Of a stretch of 64,000 nucleotides of DNA, positions 59,384-63,497 are shown piece after piece. Origin of the DNA: Fidelibacterota bacterium 408169 (lineage in GTDB: Bacteria > Fidelibacterota > Marinisomatia > Marinisomatales > TCS55); the NCBI GenBank assembly GCA_002256485.1, contig NNSG01000002.1:248001-312000 (forward strand). The letters run 5' to 3'. Positions within the stretch are counted from its first letter, which is position 1. Each line of letters opens with the position of its first letter. The translations under genes and the position numbers were made by a program. The notes beneath the pieces were generated by a model. The model saw only the letters and a list, made by a program, of their open reading frames with translations, had not been told where the DNA came from and did not search any database.

Positions 59384-61534
59384 ATGAGCACATTTTTGAA
59401 TATAACTGGTGTTTTTGCTGTAAATCTCTTGCAAAAGATTAAAATTCTTATATTAATTAAATTTACATTGAGTATTGGATGGAGTCTTTCTACTGGTGAT
59501 ATTGCATTTACTGCCTTCAACGCTGATGGTGATGATGATTTCGCAATTGTTGCTTTAGCAGATATCCCCGCTAACACGACAATCTATTTTTCCGATAATG
59601 AACCCAACAGTGATGGAACAGGATTCCTAGATTATAATGAGGGACAAATAAAATGGGCAACAGGCGGTTCAACAATTAGTTCCGGAACAATAGTTGTTTT
59701 TACTGATACTAACAGTGATGCAAATTCATCCTTTGGTGCTTCGACGGGTACATTAAGCGATCCTTTTGGAAGAGATCCTAATTTATCAGCTGACGGAGAT
59801 GCTCTTTACGCCGTAGAGGGAAGCGATAATGGATCAGCGATTACAGTATCTGCATGGTTGGCCGGAATCCAAAATGGATCCGGCAATGAAGGCAGTAATT
59901 TTAGTCAAACTGGACTAACAACAGGATCAACTTTCATTGATTTTTACAGTTCTGGGAGCCCGGATGGTGGATATTATTCTGGAGATAGACAGGGACAATC
60001 TTCATTTTCAGGATATTTAACTCTTTTAGGTGACAATTCAAAATGGACCACTGAAACCTCCACCGGTGAAAATATATTACCTATTTCAACGATAGCATTT
60101 TCTTTAGGTATAACCATTTCTGGTTCTTCTAATCATTTCCGCATGATGTCGAGTCCGGTGGCTGGACAAATCTACAGCGATTTGCTTGCAGAACTCTGGA
60201 CACAAGGAATGACTAGTGCAGACGTAACCAGCGGGGATGCAAATGTGTGGACATATGATGGTTCGAATTGGAATGCTTTGAACGATATAACTGGTTCAGG
60301 TAGTGGAGCCAGTTTAACTGCAGGGCAAGGGTTTTTAGTATATGTGTTTGCAGATACAGACAATGATGGTACGGATGATTTACCTGTAACATTGAGTGTA
60401 AGTGGGACAGAAAATAGTTCCAGTGCTACCGTACCCAGTTCCGGTTCAATCGCCGATACAGTATGGGAGTTGGCTGGTAATCCCTATGCATCTACTATTG
60501 ATTGGGATTTGGTAACCCAAACAAATGTAACTACTTCTGCTTATGTATGGGATAGTCAGGCAAGCACTCCTGCTTATATAAGTTGGAATGGGTCAGCTGG
60601 AAGTTTAACAGATGGGCTCATTGCACCTTATCAAGGTTTTTTTATTCAAGGTTCCGGAGGATCAGGTTCCATTACCATAGAGACGGCTGATAAATCTTCT
60701 GTTGCTGGTTCCTTCTACAAAACCATGAATGATAACACAGGAAGTATACGTTTTTCCATTTCATCCGGAAATTATAGTGATGAGACATTTTTGTCTTTTA
60801 CAAACGGTGGAGTAGAAGGCATGGATAATTCCGATGCGTATAAACTGCTTCCCATGACACCAAGTGAGCGGATAGTTGGATTAACCTATACAGAAGGAAA
60901 CGGGTTGGATATTAACAATCTTCCATATATTCATGATGGCTTGATTGATATTCCTTTAGATTTAATGTCTTTAACGGTGGACGCTGATTATAATTTTGTG
61001 ACCAATGAAGAAGCTATAACCTTGAATTGGGATTTATCCAACTTACCTGAAACAGTCATTGGACTAACTTTAACAAAGAATAGTACAAATGAAACAACTG
61101 ATCTGTTACAATCAGACAATATTACAGTAACTACTCAGGCCAAGGGTAGTTTCCCCGCCTATGGTTCAGGCGGTGTGAATATATATCCACAAGTGGGGGA
61201 AAGTCAGTTTACTTTCACTGTACAGTACAGTGCATTATCCTCTAATGAAGAATCCATTTATCCGAAAGAATTTGCCATGCATCAAGCATACCCAAATCCT
61301 TTTAATCCAACAACAAGAATTTCCTTTGATGTTCCTGTTAATTCAACAAATCTAACATCTCTACAGATATTCAACATTAAAGGCCAATTAGTGGAAACGC
61401 TCGTGGAGGATAAATTTTCCGCCGGAACACACACCATTCAATGGAATTCAGTGAATATTTCATCCGGTGTTTACATTGTTCAGATGAAAGCAGGAGAAAA
61501 AGTATTCAATCAGAAAATAACGTTTATAAAGTAG
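59384..61534 (+). CDS. T9SS-secreted surface protein with C-terminal sorting domain
   Basis: A 716-residue protein with an N-terminal signal segment (about 15-35). Its N-terminal domain (GDIAFTAFNADGDDDFAIVAL and on, about 36-200) is a beta-rich domain seen in many Por-secreted proteins, then a Gly/Ser-rich middle part. The last 85 residues are a type A T9SS sorting domain: AYPNPFNPTTRISFDVP, LQIFNIKGQLVETL, HTIQWNS and SGVYIVQMKAG. It would be exported by T9SS and placed on the surface or released. The exosortase locus follows immediately. Confidence 0.9.
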   Translation: MSTFLNITGVFAVNLLQKIKILILIKFTLSIGWSLSTGDIAFTAFNADGDDDFAIVALADIPANTTIYFSDNEPNSDGTGFLDYNEGQIKWATGGSTISSGTIVVFTDTNSDANSSFGASTGTLSDPFGRDPNLSADGDALYAVEGSDNGSAITVSAWLAGIQNGSGNEGSNFSQTGLTTGSTFIDFYSSGSPDGGYYSGDRQGQSSFSGYLTLLGDNSKWTTETSTGENILPISTIAFSLGITISGSSNHFRMMSSPVAGQIYSDLLAELWTQGMTSADVTSGDANVWTYDGSNWNALNDITGSGSGASLTAGQGFLVYVFADTDNDGTDDLPVTLSVSGTENSSSATVPSSGSIADTVWELAGNPYASTIDWDLVTQTNVTTSAYVWDSQASTPAYISWNGSAGSLTDGLIAPYQGFFIQGSGGSGSITIETADKSSVAGSFYKTMNDNTGSIRFSISSGNYSDETFLSFTNGGVEGMDNSDAYKLLPMTPSERIVGLTYTEGNGLDINNLPYIHDGLIDIPLDLMSLTVDADYNFVTNEEAITLNWDLSNLPETVIGLTLTKNSTNETTDLLQSDNITVTTQAKGSFPAYGSGGVNIYPQVGESQFTFTVQYSALSSNEESIYPKEFAMHQAYPNPFNPTTRISFDVPVNSTNLTSLQIFNIKGQLVETLVEDKFSAGTHTIQWNSVNISSGVYIVQMKAGEKVFNQKITFIK

Positions 61535-61542
61535 AGTTCATC

Positions 61543-61719
61543 ATGAAACAATATATTACAACATCTATCCTTTTCTCGCTTCCTTTAATCTCCCTGATCT
61601 CTGCCCAACCGAGTTTTCCTGGCGCGCCCGATCAAGCACCTATCGGTGGACTTGGACTTCTGGCTGCTGCGGGAGGAGTTATGGCATTGAAAAAATTGTA
61701 TGATAAACATAAAAAATAG
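61543..61719 (+). CDS. micro-protein with PID-CTERM-like sorting signal
   Basis: A 58-residue protein (start ATG at 61543; an in-frame ATG at 61441 lies inside the T9SS gene and is unlikely). Residues 1-21 are a signal peptide ending SAQ, residues 22 to about 32 are the only exposed part, and APIGGLGLLAAAGGVMALKK (32-51) followed by LYDKHKK is a C-terminal sorting signal: a Pro-Ile-Gly-Gly turn, a hydrophobic helix and a basic tail. It resembles the PID-CTERM signals of Bacteroidota exosortase substrates (from memory). Its 3' end overlaps the exosortase gene by 20 bp, so it is the likely dedicated substrate. Confidence 0.75.
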   Translation: MKQYITTSILFSLPLISLISAQPSFPGAPDQAPIGGLGLLAAAGGVMALKKLYDKHKK

Positions 61720-62242
61720 ATTTTCACCCTTAACAGTTTTTCTCTTTAAAGCAGGAAGCGTATACGCTGCCTGGCAATTGATTTATGATCTGGTTGTCTT
61801 ACCCGATGGCAGACTGGACACATGGTTAAGTTTCACAGGCGTAAAACTCGCTGCTGCTGGTTTATCGTTTTTGGGTTGGGAGATTGAGACTGCCGACCGT
61901 TTTATTGCCTGTGTGGGAAACAGGGGGGTGGAAATTCAAAACGGCTGCAACGGCATGGATTTACTCGGTCTTTATGCCGGTTTTATTATTGCTTATTCCG
62001 GTGAGATGAGAAAAAGAGTCATGTTCATTATCGGCGGAATTGGATTAATATTTATTGCGAATGTTTTTCGCATTGCTTTTTTTGCATTATCTAATTTGTA
62101 TTTTCCTCAATATTGGGATCCGGTACACTATTATAGTTCCTATGTCTTTTTCTATCCAATTGTTTTAACATTGTGGTATCTATGGACCACCGTGAACGAT
62201 CATTCCGATATCTTTTCTGGCGGAAGCTTTGCATCAGCCTGA
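61700..62242 (+). CDS. exosortase-family protein
   Basis: A 180-residue multi-pass membrane protein with all three catalytic residues of the exosortase/archaeosortase family: C83 in QNGCNGMDLL, R124 in NVFRIAFF and H143 in DPVHYYSSY. It should cleave the sorting signal of its substrate at the outer face of the inner membrane and transfer the mature end to a recipient. The size and motifs fit the short Bacteroidota types (XrtF/XrtX-like). It overlaps the micro-protein by 20 bp and the next membrane protein by 61 bp. Confidence 0.9.
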   Translation: MINIKNRFSPLTVFLFKAGSVYAAWQLIYDLVVLPDGRLDTWLSFTGVKLAAAGLSFLGWEIETADRFIACVGNRGVEIQNGCNGMDLLGLYAGFIIAYSGEMRKRVMFIIGGIGLIFIANVFRIAFFALSNLYFPQYWDPVHYYSSYVFFYPIVLTLWYLWTTVNDHSDIFSGGSFASA

Positions 62243-62676
62243 CCGCTATCGGTCTTATTTATATATTATTTATTCGCCCTGTACAGTCCTTTGTGGTTCG
62301 AGAATTTATCCTGCCGGCTTTTGATTCTTTCATAACACCTGAAAGTGAAATCGTATCATCGCCCGGAGTGGATGAGTTTTTTCTATCATCACTATCTGAT
62401 TCATTCCCTAGAGTAAAAATCGAAGTTCCTTTTAACGGTTATTTCTGGCTGGCAATGTCCATGATATGGCCCACAAAAAACAAACAATTCGGACGGGTTG
62501 TTTGGAATTATAATTTGGTGTTATTTGCAATTATTCCCCTTTCTGCTTTGGGAATTATTCATGGCTTCACTTGGTTAGCACCTGTAGTCAATGTACACGA
62601 GAAAGTGTATAAAGCGTTGTTTTTGATCTTGGGTATTTTAGCAGTTAGAAAAACAGATGAATTGCTAAAAAATTAA
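62182..62676 (+). CDS. exosortase-associated membrane protein
   Basis: A 164-residue protein with helices near 15-35, 85-95, 108-130 and 140-158 and a periplasmic acidic loop (about 38-82, DSFITPESEIVSSPG). I start at the ATG at 62182, inside the exosortase gene; a GTG at 62173 is the alternative. No enzyme motif is seen. Its place matches the small associated membrane proteins that follow exosortases in Bacteroidota; it may help present the substrate. It converges with the rhomboid gene, stops overlapping by 4 bp. Confidence 0.7.
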   Translation: MDHRERSFRYLFWRKLCISLTAIGLIYILFIRPVQSFVVREFILPAFDSFITPESEIVSSPGVDEFFLSSLSDSFPRVKIEVPFNGYFWLAMSMIWPTKNKQFGRVVWNYNLVLFAIIPLSALGIIHGFTWLAPVVNVHEKVYKALFLILGILAVRKTDELLKN

Positions 62677-63497
62677 TCTTTTTTTCTTCCTTTTGAAAAG
62701 TCTTTACTGGCTTTATAAAGCAAATCCTTTTCTTCATCCGTAAGATTATCATAACCTGTTTCATTAATCTTATCAAGCAAGTGATCAATCTGTTGCTGCA
62801 TTTTCAACGTGTTTTGATCTTTCCTGTCTTTAATCGATATCTTGAATTCTTTTAATTGTTTATACACAGAAAATCGAATATCCTTCCAGTGCCAATAATA
62901 ACGTAAATAACCAAAACCGATTACCATTCCGGATAAATGAGTTATATGGCTGATGTTGGAGTGATTATTAAATGAGGATAAAAATGCAACTGCTCCCAGA
63001 AAAATCACAAACCATTTCACTTTAATGGGAATCATAAAATATAGGTATACAGTGCGATTGGGAAACATCATTCCATACGCCAATAAAATTCCATATATGG
63101 CACCGCTTGCACCAATTAAAACAGCATATGACTGGCCCATATTGAATAATAACCAGATGATTCCTGAACCAACACCTGTCAGAAAATAATAACGTAAAAA
63201 CTGTTTTCGTCCCCAAATGGATTCCATTTCAGAACCAAACATCCATAAAACAAACATATTAATTAAAATATGAAATATATCTCCATGAACAAACATGTAG
63301 GTCACCGGCTGCCATATCATGGGCCAGACTGTATTTGGTGACAATCCAAATATTCTGGCTAAGTCAATCTGGCTTTGTGAAATAAATTTTAATACAAATA
63401 GCCCTGCATTAATCCCGATAAGAATTTTAATCGCCTCTGTAAATATTTTGGGCTTGAAAGACATATTACCCTGTTCGGATTGAAATTGATATCTCAT
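62673..63497 (-). CDS. rhomboid-family intramembrane serine protease
   Basis: A 274-residue inner-membrane protein with six or more helices. The catalytic dyad is S131 in GASG and H187 in HLSG; the helix 2 motif HGDIFHILINM carries H76 and N80. The C-terminus is a soluble helical extension with an NETGYDNLTDEEKDLLYKASKDF segment, like the tail found on many FCB rhomboids. It is not a fused rhombosortase type but could process membrane-anchored substrates. It overlaps the next upstream gene by 4 bp. Confidence 0.93.
   Translation of the reverse strand: MRYQFQSEQGNMSFKPKIFTEAIKILIGINAGLFVLKFISQSQIDLARIFGLSPNTVWPMIWQPVTYMFVHGDIFHILINMFVLWMFGSEMESIWGRKQFLRYYFLTGVGSGIIWLLFNMGQSYAVLIGASGAIYGILLAYGMMFPNRTVYLYFMIPIKVKWFVIFLGAVAFLSSFNNHSNISHITHLSGMVIGFGYLRYYWHWKDIRFSVYKQLKEFKISIKDRKDQNTLKMQQQIDHLLDKINETGYDNLTDEEKDLLYKASKDFSKGRKKD

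Follow-up and report, generated by a model that had tools for sequence, protein, structure and literature searches.

Exosortases are widespread, and to our knowledge no function has been assigned to those with short substrates. One such enzyme is encoded in the window, by which we mean the whole 64,000-nucleotide stretch analyzed here, directly behind a gene for a 58-residue protein. The locus raises the question of what so small a substrate is for, and with what it works.

A divergent XrtX/PID-CTERM cluster

According to a preliminary description of this DNA, overlapping genes at 61543-62676 encode an exosortase together with a dedicated micro-substrate and a membrane partner. The three genes lie there as described, but the cluster really begins upstream, with a gene at 59384-61534 for a protein bearing a type IX secretion system (T9SS) tail. 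The full cluster of this Neomarinimicrobiota genome is formed by four genes on the + strand, encoding in order the T9SS cargo, the micro-protein (61543..61719), the exosortase (61700..62242) and the membrane partner (62182..62676). The cargo stop codon is followed by an 8-bp gap and then the micro-gene start at 61543. The exosortase ATG at 61700 lies inside the micro-gene, giving the overlap of exactly 20 bp first reported, and the partner gene, starting at ATG 62182 (or GTG 62173), overlaps the exosortase gene by about 60 bp. Promoter and terminator signals within the cluster were no higher than in shuffled sequences. Convergent with the cluster, and perhaps unrelated to it, is a gene for a rhomboid-family protease with a C-terminal DUF6576 (62673-63497, - strand), whose top NCBIfam match is rhombosortase TIGR03902, far under the cut-off at 37.7 of 84 bits.

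In an NCBIfam search, the 180-residue exosortase scored 150.5 bits (E 4e-44) against XrtX (NF046081), under the curated cut-off of 170, and the next-best families reached 58.8 bits or less. TIGR04178 (58.8 bits) and PF09721 (38.4 bits) were matched above their cut-offs, the XrtF model gave only 57.4 bits (cut-off 90), and TIGR02602 (EpsH) had no match anywhere in the genome. The Cys83/Arg124/His143 triad, originally noted as intact, was checked by position and is invariant across 36 XrtX homologues. Judged by these scores, the enzyme is a divergent member of the XrtX family. The corresponding substrate model, PID_CTERM (NF046080), gave 18.8 bits on the window micro-protein (cut-off 26), 23 bits on a second copy in the genome and 26.4-30.5 bits on some relatives. 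The family searches proposed with the preliminary description do name a family for both window proteins, each below threshold. Because the XrtX and PID_CTERM scores both lie under their cut-offs, we regard the three-gene system as a variant of the known XrtX/PID-CTERM system, found in another phylum.

The micro-protein (MKQYITTSILFSLPLISLISAQPSFPGAPDQAPIGGLGLLAAAGGVMALKKLYDKHKK), a proposed XrtX substrate, has the two parts first ascribed to it, a signal peptide followed by a PID-CTERM-like tail with the form of an exosortase signal. The predicted signal peptide covers residues 1-21 (61543..61605), a cut that we infer from A21 and Q22, both invariant in 22 homologues. The predicted exposed peptide, QPSFPGAPDQAPIGGL (residues 22-37, 61606..61653), holds a PI-GG motif that lacks the Asp, and is followed by a hydrophobic helix and the basic tail KKLYDKHKK (61654..61716), typical of an exosortase CTERM signal. 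From Gln22 to PI-GG there are 12 to 15 residues, near the earlier estimate of about ten exposed. Thirteen columns are invariant in the 22 homologues (M1, A21, Q22, P26, P29, Q31, P33, I34, G36, L40, G44, A48 and K50), and in Neomarinimicrobiota conservation of the mature residues extends past the sorting motif (Q-P-x-F-P-x-x-P-x-Q). Mean pN/pS is about 0.27 for the whole protein and 0.18 for residues 22-34 (seven homologues, with synonymous sites near saturation), which indicates that it is under purifying selection. The conserved short tailed ORF on which the preliminary description had staked its proposal exists in 33 of 245 Neomarinimicrobiota genomes, in at most three copies each, and this conservation together with the low pN/pS argues that it is not a chance ORF. 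Its signal peptide, PI-GG, hydrophobic stretch and KK, the selection on it and its co-occurrence with XrtX make a role as XrtX substrate well supported, and we judge the view that it is no ordinary surface protein to be right. The Q-rule, under which signal peptidase I leaves an N-terminal Gln, was found to hold in Bacteroidetes but not to extend to the FCB group as a whole (PMC5837995), so a pyroglutamate start at Gln22 is no more than plausible here.

Two proteins in the genome bear the tail, and both are micro-proteins, the 58-residue one in the window and a 55-residue copy on contig C5; longer proteins sharing the tail, for which the preliminary description had suggested looking, were not found in this genome. 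In our Bacteroidota sample, PID-CTERM occurs in 17 of 99 genomes with one to six copies each, and the proteins recovered are nearly all micro-proteins of 49-110 residues. The very small substrate had been presented as exceptional, but with nearly all Bacteroidota PID-CTERM proteins equally small, it is the rule for the system and no oddity of the window.

The micro-protein was present in 23/23 genomes with XrtX and in 3/78 without it (Fisher p 8e-20, with kinship among the 101 related genomes ignored). Two of the three exceptional genomes are assemblies 87-89% complete, and the third holds a weak match inside a 293-residue frame. Among Bacteroidota, an XrtX-like gene was found in 19/19 PID genomes as opposed to 2/11 controls, again with genome kinship ignored. 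Physical adjacency is another matter. The expectation that a short tailed ORF always lies beside the exosortase held for every one of the 16 Neomarinimicrobiota genomes with XrtX that lie outside genus g6 and failed for the seven of g6, in which the exosortase gene is on its own and a T9SS-tail protein precedes the micro-gene; it failed also in Bacteroidota, where only two of the XrtX loci examined have such an ORF. Over all loci, XrtX is the downstream neighbor of the micro-gene in 18/74.

The membrane partner matched neither NF046082 nor any other NCBIfam family. It aligned with the protein following XrtX in genomes that we call Balneolota-like, an assignment read from their sequences (hhalign 96%, 128 columns), as opposed to 0.6% with Hymenobacter-type partners, the NF046082 type; the two Balneolota-like XrtX-following proteins that were scanned are also without an NCBIfam match. 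With low confidence, it is predicted to have a single helix at the N-terminus, then a short segment rich in strands and further helices. An AlphaFold model of it (mean pLDDT 54) was too poor for use. Of the 22 Neomarinimicrobiota loci that could be evaluated, 17 have the partner next to XrtX. The five without it are L027 and L028 (G081, G064), L025 (G045), and L019 and L022 (genus g6); what looks like the beginning of the partner gene at L027 and L028 seems to continue into a secreted protein unrelated to it. Given these loci, the partner may not be needed, or its gene may lie elsewhere.

The absence of the Asp of PIDGG, pointed out at the start, proved to be a property of the phylum: P-x-D stands at the motif in 0/42 Neomarinimicrobiota proteins as opposed to 36/39 in the Bacteroidota sample. 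Balneolota-like genomes read SQAPIDGGLSLLAAAGGAYAIKKLRDKK where the window reads DQAPI-GGLGLLAAAGGVMALKKLYDKHKK, which is shorter by a single residue at the very position of the Asp. On the enzyme side, fixed differences between the phyla include F128 (Leu in Bacteroidota), W139 (mostly Phe) and Y92 (Phe), with the Neomarinimicrobiota residue given first, and also S147/Y148. F128, W139 and Y92 are candidates for the recognition rule and nothing more, and the Asp-less motif together with these differences amounts to a natural experiment on substrate recognition.

A T9SS cargo as the upstream neighbor

The constant neighbor of the micro-gene is the T9SS cargo gene upstream of it, which the preliminary description had left unconnected. 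In the window, this cargo is 716 residues long as called (59384..61534, + strand), with a true start that may lie slightly downstream. It is laid out as a variable N-terminal domain, a conserved module of about 370 residues (60110..61243, delimited by blastp clustering and alignment) and a T9SS type A sorting domain (residues 636-712, 61289..61519). The sorting domain scores 40.5 bits with TIGR04183 (cut-off 23) and also matches PF18962. SprA (723 bits summed) and PorU (590 bits) both exceed their cut-offs in the genome, and with its tail over the cut-off and these components present, the protein belongs to the type A cargos.

Across loci harboring 81 distinct micro-proteins, the upstream neighbor has a TIGR04183 tail in 68 of 76, and the downstream neighbor in none of 75. 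As a base rate, the 2.47-Mb genome contains 62 T9SS tails over the cut-off. When tail HMMs were trained on the other phylum, they detected the upstream neighbor in 38/39 Neomarinimicrobiota and 28/38 Bacteroidota loci and the downstream neighbor in 0/38 and 0/37, respectively; some of the ten Bacteroidota loci missed upstream have Hymenobacter tails (VYPNP or LYPNP), which lie beyond the reach of the other phylum's HMM. The order is always cargo then micro-gene, mostly with a gap of 7-14 bp in Neomarinimicrobiota, and the pairing persists where the exosortase lies elsewhere. In the second pair of this genome, located close to the end of a contig (G000:C5:1-1722, L001), the micro-gene lies 9 bp after a T9SS-tail protein, is followed by a strong intrinsic terminator and has no exosortase beside it, which shows that the two-gene unit can stand alone. 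At one locus in the genus of the window (L093, G004:C60), the pair resembles that of family f7 (G064) and not that of its own genus, which suggests that the pair may have been transferred as a unit. At another locus (L152, G316), two tandem PID-CTERM micro-genes follow a single T9SS cargo.

With their tails removed, 50 of 51 cargos fell into one blastp cluster. What they have in common is the module of about 370 residues, which stands between varied N-terminal domains and the T9SS tail and for which Pfam gave no match in any of 34 members. An AlphaFold model of the cargo module and tail (mean pLDDT 42) was too poor for use. Counted from coordinates in 16 PID genomes, 36 of the 39 micro-genes that could be evaluated have the module immediately upstream. 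Module and micro-gene are near one-to-one in Neomarinimicrobiota, whereas Bacteroidota have many module-bearing T9SS proteins with no neighboring PID micro-gene. Among genomes without PID-CTERM, the module is absent in 9/12, and one of the three exceptions is a marginal match. At L082 a micro-protein stands behind a T9SS cargo that has no module. At L225 (G020:C2), a module-bearing T9SS cargo occurs in a Neomarinimicrobiota genome in which neither XrtX nor the micro-protein was found.

What the peptide may do for the cargo

The pairing points to an undescribed partnership between the exosortase and T9SS routes. We propose, with a probability of roughly 45%, that the four-gene cluster joins two sorting routes and that the XrtX-processed peptide is an anchor or assembly partner of the T9SS cargo. 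The micro-protein would be exported by Sec, and signal peptidase I would expose Gln22. By analogy with exosortases and archaeosortases, XrtX and its partner would then cut near PI-GG, so that the helix stays behind in the inner membrane, and would join the new C-terminus to an envelope molecule, either a lipid or a glycan. The product would be a proline-rich peptide of about 13-15 residues with a modified C-terminus, predicted to start pyroGlu-PSFPGAPDQAPIG... The T9SS cargo, made in step with this peptide and exported by SprA/PorU, would use the modified peptide in the outer envelope, either as an anchor or as a partner in assembly. The anchoring or assembly role is inferred from the gene pairing, and a gene neighborhood speaks to partnership, not to mechanism. 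A more general form of the proposal is that, in both Bacteroidota and Neomarinimicrobiota, a short peptide with an XrtX-modified C-terminus anchors a special class of T9SS cargos or helps to assemble them, which would bring the exosortase and PorU routes together in a single surface complex; this we consider doubtful.

The distances between micro-proteins track those of XrtX (r 0.63), whereas co-evolution of micro-protein and cargo was not significant (partial r 0.15, Mantel p 0.12). Since the micro-protein diverges in step with the enzyme and not the cargo, a generic tag produced together with the cargo fits better than a cargo-specific ligand. The lack of detected micro-cargo co-evolution, the module-bearing cargos without micro-genes and L082 all count against our proposal. 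Two of these also bear on an explanation in which nothing is anchored. The micro-protein could bind the nascent cargo module at the inner membrane as a periplasmic chaperone, with XrtX cleavage acting as a checkpoint that releases the complex for T9SS export. The invariable gene order, the short gaps in Neomarinimicrobiota and the module that the cargos share would all suit such a role, but a chaperone for the module is hard to reconcile with the missing co-evolution and with the many Bacteroidota module cargos that have no micro-gene next to them, and we think it improbable.

Equally improbable, in our estimate, is that the peptide is itself the end product, a short modified signal or matrix component that is co-expressed with T9SS surface or biofilm genes and makes no physical contact with the cargo. 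The conserved mature residues beyond the sorting motif in Neomarinimicrobiota are what one might expect of such a product, as is a micro-protein sequence that follows XrtX and not the cargo. Bacteroidota mature segments, however, differ greatly in length and sequence, unlike a signal, and co-regulation alone does not account for one cargo module being so consistent a neighbor.

The locus could also be an ordinary NCBIfam XrtX/PID-CTERM member whose T9SS neighbor reflects nothing but inherited gene order. XrtX is the best family by a wide margin and PID-CTERM micro-proteins are already modeled in NCBIfam, but the pairing recurs across paralogues, separate genome sites and two phyla while adjacency to XrtX comes and goes, and this makes inherited order a rather poor prospect. 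That the micro-protein is a pseudo-substrate or subunit holding XrtX, and not the precursor of a product, would suit the gene overlap in the window and its close relatives but is very unlikely, given that single xrtX genes are served by several micro-genes and that the micro-gene lies far from xrtX, beside a T9SS cargo, in g6, in the second copy and in most Bacteroidota.

Comparison with known systems

Our proposed partnership of peptide and cargo extends a system whose three-gene core is of a known kind; the surprising part is the cross-phylum pairing of micro-substrates with module-bearing T9SS cargos. Our literature search returned no PID-CTERM or XrtX paper in the relevant sense. In the parts of the literature on exosortases and type IX secretion that were covered, the pair is not described, the NCBIfam notes for NF046080-82 lying outside that scope.

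The closest relative is XrtX/PID-CTERM itself (NF046081, NF046080, NF046082), with which the window has in common the exosortase subfamily, micro-substrates built from a signal peptide, PI(D)GG, helix and KK, and a small membrane protein beside xrtX. It differs in that its proteins fall under the curated cut-offs, the Asp of PIDGG is deleted, the partner is a second type common to Balneolota-like genomes and not NF046082, and the micro-gene here often lies within the xrtX cluster. With PEP-CTERM/exosortase EpsH (TIGR02602, PF09721) it shares the catalytic triad, a CTERM-type signal and a membrane enzyme, but the window enzyme is short and single-domain and has micro-substrates in place of many large surface proteins. 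XrtF of Flavobacterium johnsoniae (Fjoh_1448/1449) is likewise an exosortase with an adjacent partner in a T9SS bacterium, and both proteins are needed for surface colonization and biofilm formation (PMC10936215). The targets of XrtF are described as not known (PMC12188702), whereas likely targets are identified for the window exosortase. T9SS type A cargos attached by PorU (TIGR04183, NF033707) have the tail of the upstream protein, and PorU and SprA are in the genome, but the window cargo has an exosortase micro-substrate encoded alongside it and contains a shared module that has no name. The cargo-then-micro-protein pair offers a concrete partner for XrtX, and it links two envelope sorting systems that have so far been treated apart.
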